This document shows positions 3,386-58,713 of a stretch of DNA of 64,000 nucleotides, in pieces. Below the pieces are notes generated by a model. That model did no database searches. It was not told where the DNA came from and saw nothing but the letters and a program-made list of their open reading frames with translations. The stretch covers positions 10,390,414-10,454,413 of the forward strand of contig NC_135211.1 of the NCBI RefSeq assembly GCF_052324685.1, written 5' to 3'. The stretch comes from Brachyhypopomus gauderio. Lineage: Eukaryota > Chordata > Actinopteri > Gymnotiformes > Hypopomidae. Position 1 is the stretch's first letter. Each line of letters starts with the position of its first letter. Both the position numbers and the translations under genes were made by a program.

Positions 3386-3471
<86 letters not shown>
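3369..3471. repeat. (CA)n microsatellite, about 50 units
   Basis: Interrupted at its left end by cgcacgcac and pure from about 3391. It lies between the DNAH1 poly(A) signal and MAPKAPK3. Confidence 0.95.
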
Positions 3472-21232
<17,761 letters not shown>

Positions 21233-24388: not shown

Positions 24389-38469
<14,081 letters not shown>

Positions 38470-40864: not shown

Positions 40865-43800
40865 TCAGCTTGCAAACTGCTGGTAAAACACCAGTTTCAC
40901 CCTCTCGATATGATGGCAGAGTTTTATGGCAGGGCCCAGCTTCAGGTCCATGCACTCCTGCACCGTCGGCAGGTTTAGCAGGAGCAGGGCCTGGCCATCA
41001 ATCTCCTGCAGGGAAAGAGAGAAGAAGAGAGAAGGAAAGAAAAGAAAAAAAGAAAGAAAGAAAGAAAAACAAACAGCAGAAAGATTTATTTCTTATTTCT
41101 ATCTGAGGCACTACAAGACCAAAACCCTACACGATATACACAACAAAATAAGTCATATGTAGTGTATGTGCACCACAGTAAGGAGGCCTGAACATGCGAC
41201 TGTGAAACAAAGATCAGCAGGGGGAGGTGAAATGCACCAGCGTTTCTTTTCCTCCGGAATATGCCCCCTATAGGCGGACCTGAAGGCAAACACTATGCAA
41301 ACATGGCTGTATTTATTAGGGATTCTGCCCTAAGTGATAATCTGTTTAAATGCAGCTGGAGGACAGTGATCCATGACAATGACCAGATAATCAGTGTATG
41401 GCCATCGACACGACAGACACTGGAAACTGGTTTTAATTTTTGTGATATGATAAGAATTTTTCATATGCAGGCCAGACTGGTTTAAATAGCCAAATAAGTC
41501 AGATAGCACATGGTAGTAAACCGTTTGACTGCAGATGTGTTCCATTGCGGCTGCTAATCTTATGCATGCATGAAATGTTTGGGGTTTTTTTTTTACATTT
41601 CGGCTTCGTGGTTAGCTAAAGTATCACGGGTAATAACATTCGACACCCAATGCCAAAGAAACACTGAGTGTTTGCTTCATCTGCAATTGTGTAATAAAAA
41701 TCAGCATTCCAAATATTGGCTTCATTTTGAACTTGAAGTTAAACAAAAATTGAAAATAATTGCATGTAGAATTCTAGGAATTCAGGTGTAGCTAGCTACC
41801 TAGATGAATGAAAACACTGCATAAATCTATATCTAGATAGTTGCCTACGGCGAAACCGCATCCTAAACTTTTTTTCAGATAGGTTTTAGTTATTTCTAAT
41901 AGGTTTTATGGCTGCCGCATCCTCCTAGGATCGTTAAGTAGCTAGCTGTCAAATTTATCTTAAGTAGAAACTAACTAGCTAAAATTATAGCTAGCGGACT
42001 CCACTTTATCAAGATGAAATTATACCGATGTGTCCGTTACAGTAGTTTCTCAGTTTAGGATGCAGTTTTGAAGTAGCTAGCGCTACTTAGGTATTCGTTT
42101 ACCTGTATGCACCTGGGTGCTGTATAATCGCATTATTAAGGCAAGCTGCAGTTTTTATGCTAATAGCTCAGTTTGAAGCGAGGTCCACATTCATGCACTG
42201 ACTTAATGATGGTTTAGTTACAAGTTGTACTTGTTTATTTGTTGAATACTGGGCAATGTACCTAGGCTTGAAGCAATAGTATTATTTGCACATTGTTTCT
42301 ATTCACAATATTATTAATTTGTTTAAATATTAGATAATTAAATGAAGGCAAGATATTTGGGACTTCTTAAATGCAATACAACCAGTGATTAAAAGCCCAT
42401 GGCTACATTATGTCTAAATACCTAATATTTATAATCAATATGTTGATGAAAGTAAATTAATGAAAGTAAAGTTTTTTGTTTTTTGTTTTTTATGGTGAGA
42501 GATTGATTAAGAGAGTGTAGCTGGTTGTGAAAATTAGACTCGTTTTGAAGTTGTCTGAAAAAAGGTTCTACATTTTCACTGCAACTGTTCTGCAGTCATT
42601 CTTCTTGCAATCAATGCAGTTAACATGAATGGAAAGAAACTGGTCAAATACTGTGAAACAGATTCAGTTTTGAAAAATACTGTGATATAGAATTTTGGTA
42701 ATACCACCCAGCACTATTAGATCGTGTAGCCCACAGAGCCGTAGTCAGTAGGTCATACAGCCCCCCAAGGCCTGGTTTTTAGGTCAAAGTTCAAGGTGAA
42801 AATACACTAATGTCTCCAATTTATACTGTGGTTGTATGTGACCAGGTTTTTACTACAGCTTTTATTTGGAAAACTGTGAGATAGCTAGTGCTACTTTTTT
42901 CATAGCCAACACCAACAATCAGTAAGATTCTATATTTGTGAAGGTAAAACCACTCCTCTGATGTTATCATTCAATAACATATATAAATTCTTGTCTCATT
43001 ATTGACAGCGATCCATTTCTCCACTCCAAGTATAACTAAAAAATCTACAAAGTCTTTTGGCTGACTGTCCAAGTCTTGGCTAGCTAACAGATCTTCTCTT
43101 TTCTTTAACTTTTGGCGGTCTACAATAAGATTGAAATTCTTGCAGAATTTATTGCCAGTCAGGTACACATCTCTTTCCCATTATTAATGCTTTCATGTTT
43201 GCATGACATTCACAGTAGCAGTCTGCTACTCAGTGGGCGTGTTCTACAAGCTTCAAATTGAAACCAGATATTTTGTAGCTAGTATGCAATTTAGCTATTT
43301 TTGTTCATTTGGTTATTTCATGTGTTTTCGAGTGCGTAAGTGTGAGAGTCTCAAGAATGATCACCTGGTCCATGAATATCCGTGCCAGTGGAGCACAGTC
43401 AGTGGTCCTGATGAACCGGACCACGTCCGTAACGCTCCACTCTAACGGACTGCTGTCCAAGCACAGCTTCTGAGGAGCCTCGCTGAACGGACTCTGCAGG
43501 AGACCAACAGACAAACCCGAGTTAGAGGTTAGGGGAATGTTTGTACTGTAGGTAGAGGTGCAGGGAGAAGCTGAGTGTGTTAAATCTATACTGGAAAAGT
43601 TGGCTGAGTCTAGGGTCATAGGTTAACATATAGGTTAACGCATAAACTTAGACTCAGATGGCTTCTCTAGAATGGTTTTAATATGCTCAGCTTCCCTCTG
43701 CAACTGACCACAGTACAGAATCTCACTGAATTTAAAACTGGCAACTGAGTCAATATACATATTTCTCATTATATGAAATTTTCCGCCTGTCCCAGCCCGA

Positions 43801-46194
43801 GTGGTGTGTTTACCTTGGGCGAGGGAGGCCTGTTCTCGTCGTCAGAGTAGGAGGGCGAGCGGGCTTTGCGGCGCCTGCGTGTGGCGCGTGGGGTTTCTGG
43901 GGGAGAGGGTGAGGGGGTCGGAGGCTGAGACTTCTTTTCTGAGTATTCAGAGTCGTCCATCAACTCGTCCTGCAGCTCTGAGCCCGAATCTTCGCTCAGT
44001 GAGTCATCTTCATCGAGGTCTTCCTCATCACCACTCCCCTTGAGTCAGACACATTCAAAACATAACCATTAATTCAAGCCAAGGCAGCCCATACACTGTC
44101 TGTACTTAAAAACATACACAGCAGCATATCACAGCAAGTGTGTTATACATCACTGTTATACATCACGTAGTGACACTGTTATACATCACTTGGTGACAAT
44201 GTGTTATACATCACACTGTTATACATCACTTGGTGACAATGTGTTATACATCACACTGTTATACATCACTTGGTGACAATGTGTTATACATCACACTGTT
44301 ATACATCACTTGGTGACAATGTGTTATACATCACACTGTTATACATCACTTGGTGACAATGCGTTTTGACATTTTTATGAATTAAGCACTAAGCACCATG
44401 TTAGGGGACCCTGGATACTACCAATAAATCAGAGTGGTTTAGTTACTTGATTAATGGACTTTTCACAGCATGTTTGTTTCAAATGAGACGCAGGCATTAC
44501 CTGAGGAGAGCCTGCAGGGGTGTTGTCCACAGAGGCTGACGAGCGCCTCTTCTTGTGGACGAAGAGCTGCTTCCTCCTCTTCCTCCTCCTGCCCCGCCTC
44601 TTCACACCCCCCTCCAGGTTGGAGTGGCCCCCTGGGGGGCGACCCACACGACGACTCTTCTTCTTCCCATAGTAATACGCTACATAAAACAACAACGGTC
44701 AGCACGTGGCACAGCAAGAACCAGCAGTCAAGGGGGTGGAGCAGGCTGAGTGGAGGAGGGGCAAGCGGGGGGAAGAGAGCAGGCTGAGGGGGTGGAGCAA
44801 GCTGAGTGGAGGAGGGGCAAGCTGAGGGGCCGACCTTCACATTCACTAAAACGACCACATCTTTGGAAAAAGCTAGCTAATGATGAGTCAAGGCTAGTAA
44901 GCACTTCTTAACGAGATCTCATTTGCATGATACCTATTAGCATATCGTTATGTGCACCAGCACCACCTAGCTCTGGCTCACCATTAACGAGGGTCGCAGA
45001 AGGGGATTTTTCGATCGAAGCCTCAGCGGAGGAAAGCGGGACCGAGCGGCACTCACTGTACTTGGTCTTGGTGAGGACGGAGCAGTTCTCGGAGCAGTGC
45101 TCCAGGACCATGCGCGGCCCGAACAGGTTGGGGCAGCACTCCAGCTTAATGCACGTCTTCCTGCAGAAGTCGGCCACGAGGTCCGCCGTGCGCACAATCT
45201 CCACCGTCGCCCTGTAGCTCTTCCCTTTGTACCTACGTGACAGCCGCATGCAGGAGTCAGCCTCAACCCGGAAGCAGTTCATTTGCAATGTGAAATGCTG
45301 GCCTGTTTTCCCCCACCCCCCTTTGCGGGCTGTGGTTCTCCATGATGAAACATAATAACTTCAGTCAAATGCAGGCCGTCCTTTACATACATCCATTTTG
45401 TTCAGCTGTAATAATGGGGGGCTGAGCAGGGGACGGAGCTTGGGGCGGGGACTCACTTGGCCTTGAGTGTCTCCCTGTGGCCCTGCCAGCAGTCCTCCTG
45501 GTCCAGCTGCAGCTCCCGCAGCACACGGCTGGGCTTGTACGCAGAGTTTATGAGCAACGTGAGCACCTGAGCGGAGGAGCAAACACACAACAGCAGACAG
45601 ACCCGCCGCGACAGTCAGACACGCCGCGACAGACAGACTACGTCAGGGCCGGGGTCCCTGTGCAGGTGCGCGCTCACCTCCTTCAGCACCAGGACACAGT
45701 TCCCGGGGCCCACGCACTGCGGCAGCTCGGCGATGCGGCCCTTGTTCAGGTACGGGCCCGAGAAACAGCGGTGGTTGAAGTAGATCTTGGGGCAGCTGTA
45801 CCTCCCATTTGCCTGACCTGCTGGACGGATCGGATTGCGTTAGAATGTGGCACACGGTCCCTCCCCAGACACGCCCCTCACTCCTCCTGCTTCACCACGC
45901 CCACTCCAGAGTCCGCTTGGAGTGTGTGAGTATGCAGACAGAGAAAGGAGTGTGTGTGTGTGTGTACTGATGTATTACTCACTCGTCTCCGTGTGGCAGG
46001 TGAGAGGCTGTTTGAGGGCGTCAGGCGAGGGGTCTTTGGATGGAGTACAGCTGCGTGTGCAGGACACAAAGCCATTAGGTCACCGTTCACAAAATGACAT
46101 GAATCTCAGGGTTATCGGTCACATTCATGCATTCACACTCATTACTTACTGCCTCTCAGGCTGAACCACAGCAATCTTCCTCTGTTTCTCAACT

Positions 46195-46260
<66 letters not shown>

Positions 46261-48408
46261 AATATGAAAGCCTAGTGTGCAACGCATTCTAAAACAGGAA
46301 CTTAACATATTTTATATTGCTTGAAAATCTACAACAGTCATTTTGGTCTGGGGGCCGCATACAACTTAATTGGATCTCAACAGGGCCAGACCAGTAAACT
46401 CATTTCAAAATTACATGGAGCTAGCAATAAGCCCACTTTTTTTTCTTTGTATTAGTGCAAAGAAGTAAATTATAAAAATAGTTATATGAAATGAATTTTA
46501 CTAAATATATTATGAACAACTTTTTACTTTTTAAGAAAAGTATGTGCAATTTCACTTTTTCACTTTTACTCAGTTAAACATTTAAGTGCATTATGCATAA
46601 AAACTGATCACAGTGATTTTTTCCACATCGAGGAAGCAATTCTGAAAACATGAACCTTCCATTTTTCTTGAAAAATCCAACACTGTGTCCACTTTTCTCT
46701 TTTTTGAAAGACATTTCACTTAAGAGGGTGCCAGGGTCAACAGAAAAAGCGGGTAAAGCGATAGAACTGACAAACAATATAGGAACTGCAGATTTTAAAT
46801 AAAAATGGGAGTTTATTCTTCTTTAGTAATGCAGGTTTATTCCACAGGCTGGACTGAACCCCCTGGCGGACCGGTTCCAGCCCACGGGCCGTATGTTTGA
46901 CACCCCGGGTCTAAAGGTCAGGAGTAGATTTGGGGAAGTCAGTGTGAATCCAACATGGCAAAACACTGAACACTCTGCTGGCAAGAATACGCAGGGCAGA
47001 GTAGAAGCTCTGAGCTTGAAGAGACATTACAGACGCTTAGACACAACAGACTGACCTTTGGGCTTGCAGGGATACTGGAGAGGGTAGCCATTAGTCTCAC
47101 ACCAACTAACAGGAAAGATGTCCATGGAGTCCACATGAACAATGATCTCTGGAGTGGGCTGCTTCACTCCTGCAGGGTGAGGGAGAGAACAGGGAGGTGA
47201 GACTTGAAGGAGCCTACAGCTCAAGATCCGTACTTCAAAGCGGAGTTCTGATCAAAGTCCATAATTTAATCTGCAACATCTAAACAGGCTCAGGCTCAGG
47301 CAGTCAGGCAGTGGCTTTGGGAAGCATGGAGTAAAATTCCCAATAACTACACCCAAATTCTCTCTTTACATGTTAAGGTCACACCTTCGAGTCGAATCCA
47401 GACATGTTGACCTTTGACCTTAGTGACCGTCGCCACGTGAATGTTTTCAGGACAGAGAGGGTTGACGGCTTCTAGCATCATGGACTCCTTGAAGCACTGA
47501 TCAGGTGGGTCCTGGAATAAATAAAACCAGATGAGCACACCTCACCTACCCCACCTCACCTCACCTCACTCCTCACACCCACAGCTCTGCATCATAACAG
47601 CATTTTTGAAAAACATGGGAGCATGGTGACGAGGAATACACTTTTCAGTGCACATCTAATGAGCGTGATGGTCAGTGTGTGTATGGAGTGATCTTACAGT
47701 GTGAGAGTGTGTGGGTGTGTGAGGCGAACACTCACCACAGGAAAGCAGTGCTGAGGTGCAGCTTCTGCCTCACACTGTTTCAGATACTCAGCCCAGTCAA
47801 AGTCCTGCGCTGGGTACCCTACACACACAGACGCAAACACACACACACAGATATAAACTTCTTTCACAAGCAGCGATGATGTCATCTGTGACCAAATCTC
47901 AAAACATCCTATTAGTTCCTTTAGTGTCATCAGTCTCGTATTCATACTTGAATAGAACAGATAGTGGCTAAGCTACAAGAATTATTCAAAACAGTATTAC
48001 CCATCCACACAGGGGCAGGACCATGGAGGTGACAGCACTTTATAATTATTTACTTTTACATAATTAACTCGTTATTAGAATCAATACTTATTATTCAACG
48101 TAACCACGTCTTCTTATTTTCTTACATGTGCAACAGACAATGAAAACATTGCCCACTAAATGAGAGGAGAGAGTGAAAGCTGACTGGGGAGTATCCCCTC
48201 CCCTCAGGGCGGAGCGAGGGGTGGAGCTCACCTGGAGGAGGGCGGAGTTTGACTCCATTCTTCAGGCTCCACTGGGCGGGGAAGATTCCGGGGCTGTTGC
48301 TGTGACACACGAAGGCCCGCCCCCCGCCCTCTCTCTGGCTTTCCTCCCGCATGTCCTCTATCTGCACCAGGAAGAACTGATCACCAAACACCTGTAACAC
48401 GTTTATGT

Positions 48409-48507
<99 letters not shown>

Positions 48508-51500
48508 ATTAGGGCTCTGATGCAAAGCAATCAAGTAAGATGGTTCTGTTCCACTCCATGCAACTCGTGTGGACGTCTGCTGAGCTACAGCTGCGGAGCT
48601 ACAACTTGACCCTGTTTAAGGAACACAGAACTGCACCCTGTTCTGACCCGTCATTAGAAAGCAGCATTACGGCATTGAACAACTTCCACTGACAGCAACA
48701 ACTAAACAAGAAAGTGGTTGTGGCACCAGCTGCAGTCACATCTACTTCCTGTCCAGCACTCGCAGGGACACAAATAATGTGGAAGCTTTTGTAGTACGCA
48801 CATACGAAGAAGACAGAGGGGGAGTGAGGGACAGAGACACCGGGGGAGAGAGGGTCAGAGACACTGGGCGAGTGAGGGTCAGAGACACTGGGCGAGTGAG
48901 GGACAGAGACACTGGGCGAGTGAGGGACAGAGACACCGGGGGAGAGAGGGTCAGAGACACTGGGGGAGTGAGGGAGAGAGAGAGGGCATAGAGTTCTGTA
49001 CATCTCAGTGATAGAGTCTCTGCTGCCTTGGGCTGAGTCAGTGATGTGTTAGATTTATTTTGTCTTCATTTATAAAGAAGCAATGAAACACACACGTTCA
49101 GTGGTGTCCTGTGGAACAGTACAAACAAAACGAGGTATAACAAAAAATCAAACTGGACTAAAAGCAGAACTGTCCACAACAGCTCTAATAGTGCATGAGA
49201 GTTCATACAGCATGACACATTCTTCCATTGTTATCATGGGGACAGTGGTAGACCTGTGGCAGGGCTGATGGGGAAGGGGGCAGGTGAATGTGTATAACCT
49301 TGGTAACGGTGGCGGGGCTGATGGTGAAGGGGGCAGGTGAATGTGTATAACCTTGGTAACGGTGGCAGGGCTGATGGTGAAGGGGGCAGGTGAATGTGTA
49401 TAACCTTGGTAACGGTGGCGGGGCTGATGGTGAAGGGGGCAGGTGAATGTGTATAACCTTGGTAACGGTGGCGGGGCTGATGGTGAAGGGGGCAGGTGAA
49501 TGTGTATAACCTTGGTAACGGTGGCGGGGCTGATGGGGAAGGGGGCAGGTGAATGTGTATAACCTTGGTAACGGTGGCGGGGCTGATGGTGAAGGGGGCA
49601 GGTGAATGTGTATAACCTTGGTAACGGTGGCGGGGCTGATGGTGAAGGGGGCAGGTGAATGTGTATAACCTTGGTAACGGTGGAGGGGCTGATGGTGAAG
49701 GGGGCAGGTGAATGTGTATAACCTTGGTAACGGTGGCGGGGCTGATGGGGAAGGGGGCAGGTGAATGTGTATAACCTTGGTAACGGTGGCGGGGCTGATG
49801 GTGAAGGGGGCAGGTGAATGTGTATAACCTTGGTAACGGTGGCGGGGCTGATGGTGAAGGGGGCAGGTGAATGTGTATAACCTTGGTAACGGTGGCGGGG
49901 CTGATGGTGAAGGGGGCAGGTGAATGTGTATAACCTTGGTAACGGTGGCGGGGCTGATGGGGAAGGGGGCAGGTGAATGTGTATAACCTTGGTAACGGTG
50001 GCGGGGCTGATGGTGAAGGGGGCAGGTGAATGTGTATAACCTTGGTAACGGTGGCGGGGCTGATGGTGAAGGGGGCAGGTGAATGTGTATAACCTTGGTA
50101 ACGGTGGCGGGGCTGATGGTGAATGTGTATAACCTTGGTAACGGTGGCGGGGCTGATGGGGAAGGGGGCAGGTGAATGTGTATAACCTTGGTAACGGTGG
50201 CGGGGCTAATGGTGAAGGGGGCAGGTGAATGTGTATAACCTTGGTAACGGTGGCGGGGCTGATGGTGAAGGGGGCAGGTGAATGTGTATAACCTTGGTAA
50301 CGGTGGCGGGGCTGATGGGGAAGGGGGCAGGTGAATGTGTATAACCTTGGTAACGGTGGCGGGGCTAATGGTGAAGGGGGCAGGTGAATGTGTATAACCT
50401 TGGTAACGGTGGCGGGGCTGATGGTGAAGGGGGCAGGTGAATGTGTATAACCTTGGTAACGGTGGCGGGGCTGATGGTGAAGGGGGCAGGTGAATGTGTA
50501 TAACCTTGGTAACGGTGGCGGGGCTGATGGTGAAGGGGGCAGGTGAATGTGTATAACCTTGGTAACGGTGGCGGGGCTGATGGGGAAGGGGGCAGGTGAA
50601 TGTGTATAACCTTGGTAACGGTGGCGGGGCTGATGGTGAAGGGGGCAGGTGAATGTGTATAACCTTGGTAACGGTGGCAGGGCTGATGGTGAAGGGGGCA
50701 GGTGAATGTGTATAACCTTGGTAACGGTGGCGGGGCTGATGGTGAAGGGGGCAGGTGAATGTGTATAACCTTGGTAACGGTGGCGGGGCTGATGGTGAAG
50801 GGGGCAGGTGAATGTGTATAACCTTGGTAACGGTGGCGGGGCTGATGGTGAAGGGGGCAGGTGAATGTGTATAACCTTGGTAACGGTGACGGGGCTGATG
50901 GGGAAGGGGGCAGGTGAATGTGTATAACCTTGGTAACGGTGGCGGGGCTGATGGTGAAGGGGGCAGGTGAATGTGTATAACCTTGGTAACGGTGGCGGGG
51001 CTGATGGTGAAGGGGGCAGGTGAATGTGTATAACCTTGGTAACGGTGGCGGGGCTGATGGGGAAGGGGGCAGGTGAATGTGTATAACCTTGGTAACGGTG
51101 GCGGGGCTGATGGTGAAGGGGGCAGGTGAATGTGTATAACCTTGGTAACGGTGGCGGGGCTGATGGTGAAGGGGGCAGGTGAATGTGTATAACCTTGGTA
51201 ACGGTGGCGGGGCTGATGGTGAAGGGGGCAGGTGAATGTGTATAACCTTGGTAACGGTGGCGGGGCTGATGGTGAAGGGGGCAGGTGAATGTGTATAACC
51301 TTGGTAACGGTGGCGGGGCTGATGGTGAAGGGGGCAGGTGAATGTGTATAACCTTGGTAACGGTGGCGGGGCTGATGGGGAAGGGGGCAGGTGAATGTGT
51401 ATAACCTTGGTAACGGTGGCGGGGCTGATGGTGAAGGGGGCAGGTGAATGTGTATAACCTTGGTAACGGTGGCGGGGCTGATGGTGAAGGGGGCAGGTGA

Positions 51501-54500
51501 ATGTGTATAACCTTGGTAACGGTGGCGGGGCTGATGGTGAAGGGGGCAGGTGAATGTGTATAACCTTGGTAACGGTGGCGGGGCTGATGGGGAAGGGGGC
51601 AGGTGAATGTGTATAACCTTGGTAACGGTGGCGGGGCTGATGGTGAAGGGGGCAGGTGAATGTGTATAACCTTGGTAACGGTGGCGGGGCTGATGGTGAA
51701 GGGGGCAGGTGAATGTGTATAACCTTGGTAACGGTGGCGGGGCTGATGGTGAAGGGGGCAGGTGAATGTGTATAACCTTGGTAACGGTGGCGGGGCTGAT
51801 GGGGAAGGGGGCAGGTGAATGTGTATAACCTTGGTAACGGTGGCGGGGCTGATGGTGAAGGGGGCAGGTGAATGTGTATAACCTTGGTAACGGTGGCGGG
51901 GCTGATGGTGAAGGGGGCAGGTGAATGTGTATAACCTTGGTAACGGTGGCGGGGCTGATGGTGAAGGGGGCAGGTGAATGTGTATAACCTTGGTAACGGT
52001 GGCGGGGCTGATGGGGAAGGGGGCAGGTGAATGTGTATAACCTTGGTAACGGTGGCGGGGCTAATGGTGAAGGGGGCAGGTGAATGTGTATAACCTTGGT
52101 AACGGTGGCGGGGCTGATGGTGAAGGGGGCAGGTGAATGTGTATAACCTTGGTAACGGTGGCGGGGCTGATGGTGAAGGGGGCAGGTGAATGTGTATAAC
52201 CTTGGTAACGGTGGCGGGGCTGATGGGGAAGGGGGCAGGTGAATGTGTATAACCTTGGTAACGGTGGCGGGGCTAATGGTGAAGGGGGCAGGTGAATGTG
52301 TATAACCTTGGTAACGGTGGCGGGGCTGATGGTGAAGGGGGCAGGTGAATGTGTATAACCTTGGTAACGGTGGCGGGGCTGATGGTGAAGGGGGCAGGTG
52401 AATGTGTATAACCTTGGTAACGGTGGCGGGGCTGATGGTGAAGGGGGCAGGTGAATGTGTATAACCTTGGTAACGGTGGCGGGGCTGATGGGGAAGGGGG
52501 CAGGTGAATGTGTATAACCTTGGTAACGGTGGCGGGGCTGATGGTGAAGGGGGCAGGTGAATGTGTATAACCTTGGTAACGGTGGCAGGGCTGATGGTGA
52601 AGGGGGCAGGTGAATGTGTATAACCTTGGTAACGGTGGCGGGGCTGATGGTGAAGGGGGCAGGTGAATGTGTATAACCTTGGTAACGGTGGCGGGGCTGA
52701 TGGTGAAGGGGGCAGGTGAATGTGTATAACCTTGGTAACGGTGGCGGGGCTGATGGTGAAGGGGGCAGGTGAATGTGTATAACCTTGGTAACGGTGGCGG
52801 GGCTGATGGGGAAGGGGGCAGGTGAATGTGTATAACCTTGGTAACGGTGGCGGGGCTGATGGTGAAGGGGGCAGGTGAATGTGTATAACCTTGGTAACGG
52901 TGGCGGGGCTGATGGTGAAGGGGGCAGGTGAATGTGTATAACCTTGGTAACGGTGGCGGGGCTGATGGGGAAGGGGGCAGGTGAATGTGTATAACCTTGG
53001 TAACGGTGGCGGGGCTGATGGTGAAGGGGGCAGGTGAATGTGTATAACCTTGGTAACGGTGGCGGGGCTGATGGTGAAGGGGGCAGGTGAATGTGTATAA
53101 CCTTGGTAACGGTGGCGGGGCTGATGGTGAAGGGGGCAGGTGAATGTGTATAACCTTGGTAACGGTGGCGGGGCTGATGGGGAAGGGGGCAGGTGAATGT
53201 GTATAACCTTGGTAACGGTGGCGGGGCTGATGGGGAAGGGGGCAGGTGAATGTGTATAACCTTGGTAACGGTGGCGGGGCTGATGGGGAAGGGGGCAGGT
53301 GAATGTGTATAACCTTGGTAACGGTGGCGGGGCTAATGGTGAAGGGGGCAGGTGAATGTGTATAACCTTGGTAACGGTGGCGGGGCTGATGGTGAAGGGG
53401 GCAGGTGAATGTGTATAACCTTGGTAACGGTGGCGGGGCTGATGGTGAAGGGGGCAGGTGAATGTGTATAACCTTGGTAACGGTGGCGGGGCTGATGGGG
53501 AAGGGGGCAGGTGAATGTGTATAACCTTGGTAACGGTGGCGGGGCTAATGGTGAAGGGGGCAGGTGAATGTGTATAACCTTGGTAACGGTGGCGGGGCTG
53601 ATGGTGAAGGGGGCAGGTGAATGTGTATAACCTTGGTAACGGTGGCGGGGCTGATGGTGAAGGGGGCAGGTGAATGTGTATAACCTTGGTAACGGTGGCG
53701 GGGCTGATGGTGAAGGGGGCAGGTGAATGTGTATAACCTTGGTAACGGTGGCGGGGCTGATGGTGAAGGGGGCAGGTGAATGTGTATAACCTTGGTAACG
53801 GTGGCGGGGCTGATGGTGAAGGGGGCAGGTGAATGTGTATAACCTTGGTAACGGTGGCGGGGCTGATGGTGAAGGGGGCAGGTGAATGTGTATAACCTTG
53901 GTAACGGTGGCGGGGCTGATGGTGAAGGGGGCAGGTGAATGTGTATAACCTTGGTAACGGTGGCGGGGCTGATGGTGAAGGGGGCAGGTGAATGTGTATA
54001 ACCTTGGTAACGGTGGCGGGGCTGATGGTGAAGGGGGCAGGTGAATGTGTATAACCTTGGTAACGGTGGCGGGGCTGATGGTGAAGGGGGCAGGTGAATG
54101 TGTATAACCTTGGTAACGGTGGCGGGGCTGATGGTGAAGGGGGCAGGTGAATGTGTATAACCTTGGTAACGGTGGCGGGGCTGATGGTGAAGGGGGCAGG
54201 TGAATGTGTATAACCTTGGTAACGGTGGCGGGGCTGATGGGGAAGGGGGCAGGTGAATGTGTATAACCTTGGTAACGGTGGCGGGGCTGATGGTGAAGGG
54301 GGCAGGTGAATGTGTATAACCTTGGTAACGGTGGCGGGGCTGATGGGGAAGGGGGCAGGTGAATGTGTATAACCTTGGTAACGGTGGCGGGGCTGATGGG
54401 GAAGGGGGCAGGTGAATGTGTATAACCTTGGTAACGGTGGCGGGGCTGATGGTGAAGGGGGCAGACGGGTCCACTGCCTCCAGCTTCATGCCCTCAGTGA

Positions 54501-55405
54501 AGCTGTGAGGACTGAGGGTCATCCGGTCCTGCGCACACACACACACACAGTCCATTGACATGTTCATAATGTCTGACACCTTAACCTTAACTGCAGAGGA
54601 ATCGACTGAATGGAAGGAGAGGATGTTTGATCTTCACCTTGTAGAACTCCTCACTGATGCTGGAGTCATGTGACTGGCTGGAGAAGCCGCGTCTCACCTC
54701 GTCCCACTGGTCCTGGCTACGCAGCGCTAGCAGAGCTGAGGGAGGGGACACACACACATGAGCTTACGTTAACACAGTCTCCTGTCACCTAAACAGGTAT
54801 CAAGGGTTAACTGCTTCAAGCCAGTGGACTCTGATCTGGGTTCAGCTATGTCCCCCCTGCCCCCACCCTATTGATCAGCTGAAGTGTGTAGTGTAACTCT
54901 GCTCATACTCCAGTGAAACACTGGCTGGAAGGAAAGTCACAAGGCGTAGCTGCCTAAAGCAGAGTGTCCAGCAGCAACCCACTCCCCCGCCATCACTATA
55001 AAGAACCTCCCACTTCTAAAGAACCTCCCCCGTAAAGAACCTCCCACTTCTAAAGAACCTCCCGCGTAAAGAACCTCCCACTTCTAAAGAACCTCCCACT
55101 TCTAAAGAACCTCCCCCGTAAAGAACCTCCCCCGTAAAGAACCTCCCCCGTAAAGAACCTCCCCCGTAAAGAACCTCCCACTTCTAAAGAACCTCCCACT
55201 TCTAAAGAACCTCCCCCGTAAAGAACCTCCCCCGTAAAGAACCTCCCCCGTAAAGAACCTCCCACTTCTAAAGAACCTCCCACTTCTAAAGAACCTCCCA
55301 CTTCTAAAGAACCTCCCCCGTAAAGAACCTCCCCCATTCTAAAGAACCTCCCCCATTCTAAAGAACCTCCCTCGTAAAGAACCTTTTCCTTCTAATGAAC
55401 CTCCT

Positions 55406-55468
<63 letters not shown>

Positions 55469-55838
55469 CTTAATGAAACTAAAACTTCTGGTTTTTATCA
55501 AAAGCGAACAGGGTTTACACAGTGCTGAGTGACCTGCTCTGGAATGAGCACTCTGGAACCTAGAGGAGCAGCACCCAGAACTCACCTGCTGGGGGCCTGA
55601 GGGTACAGCCGTGCTCCTTGGCCCAACCGGGCAGGTGAAGCAGGGGGCTCAAGTAGAACAACCAGGTGATGGAGTGGGCGTCGGCCAGCCCCTCTGTGCC
55701 TGCGTAGCGGAGGCGGAGCCTGCCACCTACATTATCCTCGATGGTAGCAGGCCAGGCCACTCCCACATTCTGGTAGTCCAGCAGCTCGACGCAAAGGCCT
55801 GGATTCAACAGATCTACAGGATTACAGCCACGCTGAGC

Positions 55839-55877
<39 letters not shown>

Positions 55878-55985
55878 ACAAATACTGTGTACTGTGGCAG
55901 TGCGGTGTGTGTACTCTGGTAGTACAGTGTGTGTGTGTGTGTGTGTACTGTGGCGCTGTGTGTGTGTGTGTGTGTACTGTGGCGC

Positions 55986-56017
<32 letters not shown>

Positions 56018-56236
56018 GTGGCGCTGTGTGTGTGTGTGTGTGTGTGTACTGTGGTGATGTGTGTGTGTGTACTGTGGCGATGTGTGTGTGTGTGTGTACT
56101 GTGGCGATGTGTGTGTGTGTGTGTGTACTGTGGCGATGTGTGTGTGTGTGTGTGTGTGTGTACTGTGGCGATGTGTGTGTGTGTGTGTGTGTACTGTGGC
56201 GATGTGTGAGTATGTGTGTGTGTGTACTGTGGCGAT

Positions 56237-56285
<49 letters not shown>

Positions 56286-56312
56286 GTGGGGATGTGTGTG
56301 TGTACTGTGGCG

Positions 56313-56353
<41 letters not shown>

Positions 56354-58713
56354 TCACCCCCTCCAGCAGGCTGGCCGGTGCACTGCGGGGCTCAGACAGT
56401 GCTTGCTCCAGCAGGGCCTCCCAGTCTGCGTGCTTGTCCCGCACTCCTGCACACACCGCTGGGCTGTCACCACACACACTGGCTCGCACACACCATGCTG
56501 GCTACAGCAGGTCAGCTGGAAAGGCTGCCATCTTGTCTTAGGTTAATATTTAAACTGCTGAAACTTTAACAGATTGTTAAATATCTGTATTAGGTATTTT
56601 CATCCGTGTTTTACTCTTCTGTTGTGATTTTTTTCCTTGGAAAATATTTGAAAACAAGTTCCCCTTTTTCATTAAACCCCTCCACAGAAGAATGCAAACA
56701 CAGCCAATACAGAATAAAGACAACTACCAGTACATAGTCCTTGTATAACGTTAACAACCAGGACACGGTGGCCATGCTGGAGTCCGAGTGATTGGTCTAC
56801 ACTGAAGCTGCTAGTTTCAGTCTGGAATTAGGCCAGTGATATCTGCATAAACTCTGGCGGTATTATTGAACAGAATGTTCTGTCCACATGTCCTTCCCCT
56901 CACCCCACGTCCTTCATACGGCCTGCCAGTCAAGAGTGAACTACCAGCTGCAGGATTTAGCACAGCGGTGCTAGCAGTGAAAACACCAGAGCCCAGACAC
57001 AGCACCAGGCCCAGTTCAGACCCAGCACCGGGTCCAGTTCAGCTGAAAGCAGCTATGCAGCCCCACCACAGATAACCTGTCACACCAACCCACGTCTGCC
57101 CAGCTGTACTGGAGGAGAAGCAAATACTGTATAGTGTAATGAATGAATGAGTGAATGATTACAGTGGACTTGTAATATGATAAGATTTCATTCCACATAG
57201 GGTCCATGAAGTGGAGGAAAGTGTCAATTGAGTAGACTTCAGATGTTATTCTTCTACTCAAGCGCTGTTTAAGTTCAGGGGGCGACACACCCGGCTCAGC
57301 TCGAGGGCAACACACTTGACACACAGGTGTGTGTCATAGCAACGCTCAAGCTCCACGTGAGTAATATACAAAAGGAGATACCCTGGTCCAGACGCAGTGT
57401 GCAGGCCTGACTCGACTGGCTGTTCTCAAACTGCTATACGCTATGATGAGGCAGACACACAGTTTCCTCACAAACCGTTACAACAGTACAAGGCTACTAC
57501 AGAAATAAATGAAACAACAGTAATCGATATAACAACATTAAAAGCCCCATTAATCCTTTCCCTTTGTCTCATGAAGATAATCAATGATTCCCATTATAGT
57601 CTTTGTTATCCACAGTTTTGGTATCCACTCTATACACTCATGCTCTACACAAGCAGGTCCTCCAAATTATTTTCATATCTTTTTTCAGATCTTCAACCCC
57701 TTTGACTTCCCTTTCCCACAATCCCCCCTGCTCACCGTCCGGCGGCCTCATCGGTTGACCATGCTGCCTGCTCCAGCCAATGGGGTGCAGATTGGCGGTG
57801 GTGATGTCACACCAGAAGTCGGCACGGCGATCGTCCTGGTAACCCTCGTAGCGCAGCAACAGCAGCTGGCCGCAGGTGGTGATGATGGCGGCCACCCAGT
57901 AGGCAGTGTCGTTGTCGCCAGCACGTACCTGCACCTCCAGCCGCATGCCCGGGGCCAGGCCGGTCTGCAAACCCTCGTCCATCTGCCAGAACACCAGCCA
58001 TGCGGTTAGCACCCCACGCATGGAGGCTCTCGACAGGCACAGCTGCGCCTGCCTGTTCTACCCTCATGACTGCAAGACCAAGTCCCACTAGAACTCAACA
58101 TGGCTGCCACGGGCACAAAGTTGACTTAAAATATCCCGTGACAGTTCGGTGTTATGGTAACGAGGCCGAGCACTGCGGCGCACGTCCCAGTGCTGCAGGA
58201 AGGCAGTGTCTGACACCAGCGCCGCCTCAGCAGGAGCTAAAAGAGGAGCGTGGCGTGGAGGTGTGGAGGAGGAGGTGCACTCACGTGTTTGAAGGCGTGG
58301 TGAGGCACGGACAGGGCACCGGTCTCCTCCAGGTAGTCATCCCAGTTAAACTCAGACCCATCCTGGCCAGAGTCCGCATCTGAAATGACACGCAAACGGC
58401 TCCTGCAGGCTCACTAATGATGACCATTCTAATATAAAACTATATTAGCACTATTATGTATCCAAACTCGGATGGGTTTATAAGAGCAGGTTCCAAAAAA
58501 AATTGCAATTTTATTGCAGGAAAGAAATCGACTGAATCCATTTGAGTTCAATTTGTATGTAAACACATAGAAATCTCTTAAATAGCAACCATAGTGTGAA
58601 GCCCGATACCGCTATCAAATGGGCAGATACAGTTAGCAGGTTAGCTGACAGTGGCATTTATTGAGAAAAATGTCTTCGCTCCCCTTACCGGACTCCAGTG
58701 CCTCTAGACTCAT
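40865..58713 (-). CDS. sfmbt1: Scm-like with four MBT domains 1, complete
   Basis: Twenty coding exons in transcript order: 58713-58689, 58379-58285, 57982-57736, 56446-56358, 55838-55586, 54735-54638, 54528-54427, 48391-48232, 47818-47736, 47511-47385, 47169-47056, 46192-46150, 46050-45983, 45817-45678, 45566-45457, 45232-45057, 44679-44501, 44038-43814, 43493-43365 and 41005-40865. All phases agree and give 867 residues (human 866). It is a Polycomb-related nuclear repressor that reads histone tails. Visible parts are four MBT repeats (residues about 24-123, 124-236, 256-356, 360-465), a SLED/DUF3588 domain (about 502-640; [20 protein letters not shown]), a basic stretch (GRRRKRRKQ), an acidic/serine linker, and a C-terminal SAM domain (about 790-867). 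The third MBT repeat is split by an intron made almost wholly of a minisatellite. Confidence 0.96.
41852..42069. mobile_element. Short inverted-repeat element
   Basis: Arms gaaaccgcatcctaaact (41852-41869) and agtttaggatgcagttttg (about 42052-42070) pair with one or two mismatches around about 180 bp. Neighbouring sequence has many agctagc motifs. Could be a MITE; no target duplication was established. Confidence 0.55.
42260..42720. mobile_element. Dispersed repeat related to the interior of hAT copy A
   Basis: Shares several long imperfect stretches in the same order with 8100-8625, including 'gggactt', 'caatacaacca', 'gactaaatacct'-like text and an end of the form accacccagcacta / accgcccagcacta. 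Confidence 0.7.
44143..44362. repeat. 40-bp minisatellite, about 5 copies
   Basis: Unit made of gttatacatcacttggtgac then aatgtgttatacatcacact, in an SFMBT1 intron. Confidence 0.93.
46199..46258. repeat. (CA)30 microsatellite upstream of an SFMBT1 acceptor
   Basis: In the gene's direction it is a (TG)n tract ending four bases before the TTTGCAG acceptor of exon 46192-46150. Confidence 0.93.
46340..46910. mobile_element. Probable non-autonomous hAT-like element (copy F)
   Basis: Left part ctgggggccgcatacaac and right part cccacgggccgtatgtttga then caccccgggtct resemble the ends of a common vertebrate hAT family with 'ggtgtcaaac' termini. The 8-bp target duplication is not convincing. No coding capacity. 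It lies in an SFMBT1 intron. Confidence 0.6.
47819..48231 (-). other. SFMBT1 intron after exon 48391-48232
   Basis: Noncoding; short CA run near the acceptor (about 47819-47850). Nothing else is seen. Confidence 0.6.
48412..48504. repeat. (CA)46 microsatellite upstream of an SFMBT1 acceptor
   Basis: Read as (TG)n in the gene's direction, it ends about 20 bp before the TTACAG acceptor of exon 48391-48232, at the far end of the intron that carries the 53-bp array. Confidence 0.95.
48820..48985. repeat. Minisatellite of 'gacactggg' units
   Basis: About seven copies of a 21-24-bp unit combining gagggtcagagacac with tgggcgagtg or cgggggaga. It is noncoding and in the same intron as the 53-bp array. 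Confidence 0.9.
49256..54464. repeat. 53-bp minisatellite, about 98 copies, containing an exon end and splice donor
   Basis: In SFMBT1 orientation each unit is 38 nt identical to the last 38 nt of exon 54528-54427 (coding for most of [13 protein letters not shown]) plus 15 nt of intron starting GTTATACACATTCAC. Copies are nearly identical. Common variants are a T-to-G change in gatggtgaag (24 copies counted), ctgatgg to ctaatgg (six copies), and a 13-bp deletion in one copy near 50118. The array fills most of a 6.0-kb intron. The copy furthest right is the real exon end; only it is preceded by the unique part of the exon. Confidence 0.96.
54427..54528 (-). CDS. sfmbt1: SFMBT1 exon 7 (third MBT repeat), source of the array
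   Basis: A phase-0 exon of 34 codons including [12 protein letters not shown] and [11 protein letters not shown]. Its donor, AAG followed by GTTATA, departs from GTRAGT at +3 and +5, so it is weaker than most other donors in this gene. The last 38 nt are the coding part of the 53-bp repeat unit. Confidence 0.93.
54996..55395. repeat. Mixed 16/18-bp minisatellite
   Basis: Two interchanging units, aaagaacctcccccgt and aaagaacctcccacttct, about 23 copies in irregular order. It is in the SFMBT1 intron between exons 55838-55586 and 54735-54638. The glycine-rich ORF opposite is an artefact. Confidence 0.93.
55408..55462. repeat. (TA)27 microsatellite
   Basis: Pure TA run directly after the 16/18-bp array. 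Confidence 0.97.
55842..56352. repeat. (CA)n and compound (GT)n-'actgtggcgat' array filling an SFMBT1 intron
   Basis: Starts with (CA)16 at the acceptor of exon 55838-55586, then about 11 blocks of GT repeats of variable length separated by actgtggcgat/actgtggcgct, running to the donor of exon 56446-56358. The whole 519-bp intron is nearly all simple repeat. Histidine/threonine- and cysteine/valine-rich ORFs here are not genes. Confidence 0.95.
56447..57735 (-). other. SFMBT1 intron between the first and second MBT repeats
   Basis: Noncoding; 57000-57060 has a short cagcaccgggtccagttcag-like duplication. No mobile element is recognised. Confidence 0.65.
57983..58688 (-). other. SFMBT1 introns flanking exon 58379-58285
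   Basis: Single-copy noncoding sequence apart from the exon itself. Confidence 0.6.

Follow-up and report, generated by a model that had tools for sequence, protein, structure and literature searches.

The window analysed here, 64,000 nt of the Brachyhypopomus gauderio genome (contig NC_135211.1, positions 10,390,414 to 10,454,413), carries on its minus strand a gene of 17 modelled coding exons, the sixth of which ends inside the first copy of a 53-bp minisatellite that makes up most of the following intron. The features of the gene and the array, in window coordinates, are listed below.

40866..58379, minus strand: SFMBT-type gene, 17 coding exons, with the start-codon exon outside the model (hand-built model, domain matches, protein alignment)
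54427..54528, minus strand: exon 6, first part of MBT repeat 3, whose last 38 nt (54464-54427) are array copy 1 (model, Pfam MBT)
54421..54429, minus strand: copy-1 donor (5' splice site), AAG|GTTATA, with 54427 as its last exon base and 54426 as its first intron base, joining exon 7 in frame (open join, protein alignment, paralogue intron)
48392..54426, minus strand: intron 6, 6035 nt, mostly array (model)
49256..54464, minus strand: minisatellite array of 53-bp units, 98 copies with a donor and one partial copy at the low-coordinate end (repeat finder, exact search)
50079..50118, minus strand: the sole 40-bp unit, number 83, 13 bp shorter than the other units (exact search, unit spacing)
49256..49283, minus strand: partial last copy, 3'-most, about 28 nt, with two substitutions and without a donor (exact search)
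48232..48391, minus strand: exon 7, second part of MBT repeat 3, acceptor GTTACAG|GTG (model)

Exon edges were placed by hand from translations, and translation of the joined 17-exon model was open over 821 residues and contained four MBT repeats (Pfam MBT) as well as SLED and SAM domains, a make-up that marks the predicted gene as an SFMBT-type chromatin gene, in agreement with the original prediction, and presumably as SFMBT1 rather than SFMBT2. Joining copy 1 to the acceptor at 48391 yields ...PATVTK|VFGDQFF..., which is open and aligns ungapped at the join to solved MBT proteins. An SFMBT-type paralogue in the same assembly (contig C358, 72.5 kb) is likewise split by a phase-0 intron at this K|V, and its donor, AAA|GTAAGT, is followed only by a GA tract and by no minisatellite; the array sequence ACCAAGGTTATA was absent from the 9,999 bases fetched around this paralogue, part of which was masked. 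The paralogue segments lie at about 3439-3991 and 4570-5208 of the fetched stretch, with a CATC-rich minisatellite nearby. The open ungapped join, the four-MBT/SLED/SAM model and the paralogue intron at the same place together support the donor position; the copy-1 donor appears sound in its position and is weak in its sequence. Creation of a new intron by tandem duplication of AGGT was considered as well and was rejected in view of the shared phase-0 intron.

Tandem Repeats Finder returned an array of period 53 with 98.5 copies and 97% matches between 49256 and 54464, and ACCAAGGTTATA had 98 exact matches on the minus strand, with neighbours 53 bp apart in 96 cases and 40 bp apart in one, which indicates that no mutated copy was missed within the array. 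On the gene strand, the full unit consists of 38 nt of exon end and 15 nt of intron start, and the exon-intron join ACCAAG|GTTATA is present 98 times on the minus strand with all 98 donors identical. The copy number of about 98, the 38 + 15 division and the 5' splice site within the unit had all been predicted from the sequence and were recovered here, with exon 6 at 54528-54427, its last 38 nt forming copy 1, and AAG|GTTATA in 98 copies; the predicted extent (49256..54528) was correct at its lower end and too long at its upper end, where the array stops at 54464 and 54465-54528 is unique exon. Among the 74 tandem-repeat rows of the window, this array alone extends into one of the 17 modelled exons, sharing 38 nt with exon 6. 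In the 796.5-Mb assembly of the species, where search counts of repeats are lower bounds, the 38-nt exon part was found at least 97 times with up to three mismatches, always inside the array.

The 97 full-length units differ at five positions, A>C at unit position 12 (23 copies), C>T at position 17 (6 copies), C>T at position 23 (3 copies), G>T at position 24 (1 copy) and C>T at position 25 (1 copy), and these variants, together with the single shortened unit, are distributed irregularly along the array. At one edge, copy 1 matches the consensus exactly, and at the opposite edge the partial last copy is doubly variant; the edges of tandem arrays are often cut short or diverged, as this last copy is. 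The unit end (TTCAC) shares a CAC with this copy (GCCAC|AGGTCT), which may therefore have been shortened by a small deletion. A block of 12 units that includes four variant units (units 33-44) recurs 36 units away at units 69-80, a recurrence reached in a fraction of 0.009 of 2000 shuffles with a four-variant threshold that was set after the block had been seen, and such a repeated block is the pattern that block exchange would leave. The position-12 variant showed a periodicity at lag 4 that a fraction of 0.026 of 5000 shuffles matched; as this was the strongest of 15 lags, without correction, no weight is placed on it. It had also been proposed that a TTCACC shared by both unit edges allowed the first duplication to slip; the word TTC[A/C]CC in fact recurs at alternating steps of 40 bp (98 steps) and 13 bp (97 steps) and thus does not lie at both edges. 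A slip between two such words would produce a 40-bp unit, as in short copy 83, and TTCACC-mediated slippage was rejected as the source of the 53-bp unit, since the spacing fits only that single copy. On the plus strand, no four-G3 quadruplex motif with loops of up to 7 nt was found, and 99 G2-type motifs were present.

To place the array in its genomic setting, we sampled twenty 10-kb stretches of the same assembly, chosen blind to content (two partly masked, 2,997 bases). Minisatellite-type repeats with a period of 7 or more occupied 21,090 bp of the 200 kb sampled, about a tenth, and arrays of 1 kb or more were present in 3 of the 20 stretches, including about 120 repeats of a 38-bp unit, 4557 bp in all, on contig C8. 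Long arrays are therefore ordinary in this genome, and this one stands out by beginning within a coding exon. The window itself contains further repeats: a second minisatellite in intron 4 of the same SFMBT-type gene (54999-55404, periods of 16, 34 and 84 bp, TAAAGAACCTCCC), a 426-bp GT/CA tract that starts 6 nt past the exon 3 donor on the gene strand (55927-56352), and two clean minisatellites at 13581-14253 (27 bp, 25 copies) and 10242-10529 (20 bp, 14 copies). In the part of the window inspected for genes, which begins after base 30000, open frames at 30264-30803 (plus strand) and 32382-32552 (minus strand) resemble the end of a LINE reverse transcriptase and the start of a Tc1-type transposase, respectively.

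We scored the donors of the gene model with a donor frequency matrix and by pairing with the U1 5' end. The unit contains the AG|GT of the 5' splice-site consensus, and the array donor was nevertheless the weakest of the 16 by both measures, with -1.25 bits against 2.80 to 8.51 bits and a U1 duplex of -4.1 kcal/mol against -5.2 to -12.2 kcal/mol for the other 15; the paralogue donor reached 5.12 bits but only -5.6 kcal/mol of U1 pairing. The fold of the RNA near the array donor has a lower stability than those of most shuffled sequences (z = +1.96). The donor is invariant across the 98 copies, but since no more than five positions vary in this homogenised array, the invariance is weak evidence of selection on it.

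The consequences of using a given copy follow from its position. Use of donor k would add 53(k-1) nt, save for the 13-bp shorter step at unit 83, and a stop-free in-frame message would result from only 6 of the 98 donors (1, 4, 7, 10, 13 and 16). The remaining donors would lead to a stop in exon 7 (11 donors) or inside the array (81 donors), the latter because the C>T change at unit position 17 makes a TAG in six copies, the first of them copy 18. If donor 4 or a later one were used in frame, MBT repeat 3 would gain 53 residues or more, and the messages predicted would thus carry an insert of 0 nt or, if insertions are tolerated, of multiples of 159 nt up to 795. A coding role for the array was rejected: the one frame that is open through it differs from the exon frame, the C>T change at unit position 17 makes TAG in six copies, and a shuffled unit was stop-free in 26% of 20000 shuffles, which makes such openness unremarkable.

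We consider it probable that the array is a passenger, a "mirage" minisatellite whose copy 1 serves as the working exon end while the other 97 copies leave with the intron. It would have originated in a tandem duplication across the exon-intron boundary that then grew into a minisatellite, with copy 1 still acting as the real exon end and the 97 intronic copies normally being removed; the copy-1 donor is the one expected to be used, since it is the donor closest to the remainder of exon 6 and the one whose use preserves the MBT3 repeat. The length of the array would change by unequal exchange or slippage, as minisatellites do, and the array would probably have no required function; instead of acting as a regulatory device, it would be likely to expose the gene to mis-splicing. 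The regularity of the 98 exon-intron copies, the identity of copy 1 to the consensus and the open joined protein with four MBT repeats, SLED and SAM all argue for this reading, as do the six stop-free donors among 98, the repeated 12-unit block and the share of minisatellites in the sampled DNA. Amphioxus mirages with AG/GT signals are also reported to leave regular splicing undisturbed.

The poor score of the copy-1 donor means that its exclusive use is not assured, and donor competition and exon extension are possible on this arrangement, in which only donors 1, 4, 7, 10, 13 and 16 keep the frame without a stop. Under such competition, several of the first copies would be used in 53-nt steps, yielding mostly out-of-frame, degraded messages, so that the array would lower or tune SFMBT1 output and its length would act as a dosage variable. 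We regard this as rather unlikely. It is favoured by the 98 identical donors, among which only position distinguishes one from another, and by the nearest alternatives, copies 2 and 3, which would shift the frame and run into a stop in exon 7; two downstream units of the human IFI6 minisatellite are also reported, in an excerpt from a citing paper, to be used as donors, which by analogy would weigh against a pure passenger. On the other side, the donor is weak in every copy, and the Adh and TnC mirages of amphioxus are reported to give no aberrant mRNAs (PMC3902484). Either way, 98 identical donors that differ only in position would constitute a natural test of spliceosome choice.

Most units also resemble a 3' splice site, in that TTCAC is followed by a pyrimidine-rich stretch, by ATCAG and then by a 19-nt stretch with the donor after it, the layout of a micro-exon. 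We gauged this resemblance, as distinct from strength, with a rule that required a YAG, at least 81% pyrimidine (a threshold taken from the unit itself after the fact) and a branch point of the form YTNAY 18-40 nt upstream. The rule picked out 96 of the 98 units (all except units 1 and 83) and the partial last copy, as against 26 of 3942 AGs outside the array, and 1 of the 17 acceptors of the gene model. By the same simple measures the true intron 6 acceptor at 48391 (minus strand) is poor, with a pyrimidine content of 50% and no YTNAY in the stretch 18-40 nt before it. Array copies may therefore be exonised, which counts against the passenger reading, and the hazard, if any, would concern acceptors as much as donors. 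In its full form, this alternative treats most units as potential micro-exons, each with TTCAC as branch point, then a pyrimidine tract, ATCAG|, 19 nt and AAG|GTTATA, and some of these micro-exons would be included between exons 6 and 7. The contrast in rule matches inside and outside the array speaks for it, but the rule is a crude one that finds only one model acceptor, the paired donor is poor, exon definition is hard for a 19-nt exon, and the intron from each donor to the next acceptor would measure 34 nt, too short for ordinary splicing. We judge it unlikely on this balance.

More speculative still is a length-dependent splicing rheostat, a long shot in our estimation, in which copy number would set the use of the weak copy-1 donor, SFMBT1 output would vary between individuals, and occasional in-frame inserts of 53, 106 or more residues in MBT repeat 3 would arise from donors 4, 7, 10, 13 and 16. 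That the array is an assembly expansion of one or a few real copies is very unlikely: the copy number is known from one assembly, but the copies differ irregularly, with five substituted positions and one shortened unit, and the 55-Mb length of the contig suggests a long-read assembly. Titration of U1 snRNP by the array, which the original prediction had raised and which the 98 sites per transcript might suggest, can be set aside as extremely unlikely, because the donor is the poorest of 16, because 441 of the 4293 minus-strand GTs beyond the array, roughly one in ten, are at least as good on both scores (672 by matrix, 908 by U1 pairing), and because the density of such sites, 18.8 per kb in the array against 7.5 per kb outside, is only 2.5 times background.

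The passenger reading places the SFMBT-type array beside minisatellites already known from exon edges. In the available parts of the amphioxus reports, mirage minisatellites lie at exon-intron boundaries of globin and Adh3 genes, many of their units carry AG/GT signals, and they show length instability, with somatic instability at Adh3 (PMC3087553); their interiors are homogenised and their boundaries excluded from homogenisation, units span 10-160 bp, BflGb6 has 6 and 3 units in two haplotypes, and BflGb9 has a duplicate unit (PMC3087553, PMC3902484). PGBD5 repeats have been likened to the amphioxus mirages of Adh3, BflGb6/BflGb9 and troponin C (excerpts of PMC3087553 and PMC3902484). Three features of mirages recur here: the array spans an exon-intron boundary (38 nt of exon and 15 nt of intron per unit, with a 38-nt overlap of exon 6), its repeats contain splice signals (AAG|GTTATA 98 times, 3' splice-site-like elements in 96 of 98 units), and a homogenised interior with the repeated 12-unit block adjoins a diverged edge in the doubly variant last copy, copy 1 being identical to the consensus. 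Both systems thus consist of tandem repeats over an exon-intron boundary with AG/GT signals, whereas the amphioxus arrays in those excerpts have 6, 3 or duplicate units and the present one has 98 of 53 bp in a vertebrate SFMBT-type gene.

In the human IFI6/G1P3 gene, Turri, Cuin and Porter are said to have described in 1995 a minisatellite with multiple splice donor sites, reportedly made of 12-bp units in about 26 copies close to the donor consensus. The likeness is that minisatellite units supply several 5' splice sites, two downstream units serving as donors in the excerpt of the citing paper; the difference is that the present unit is 53 bp long and its donor far from consensus. In duplicated human genes, variable internal tandem repeats located at exon-intron edges alter splicing and can form new introns, the variable repeats averaging 30-bp units and 4 copies (PMC2812944), whereas the intron position here is shared with the paralogue. 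No exon-edge array in fish was found in the literature searched, which does not show that none is in print; the excerpts of papers on DDX3Y, seabream myostatin-2 and earthworm metallothionein described no exon-edge array, and the excerpt of the myostatin-2 paper mentions minisatellites in seabream growth-hormone introns. The initial impression that no comparable case had been described therefore gives way to the amphioxus mirages, with far fewer copies in the excerpts at hand, and to human IFI6/G1P3. Collectively, since exon-edge minisatellites have been described in amphioxus and human, the SFMBT-type array is another case of a known kind, now in another vertebrate gene, and is notable for its 98 copies, a number far above those in the available parts of the amphioxus reports.
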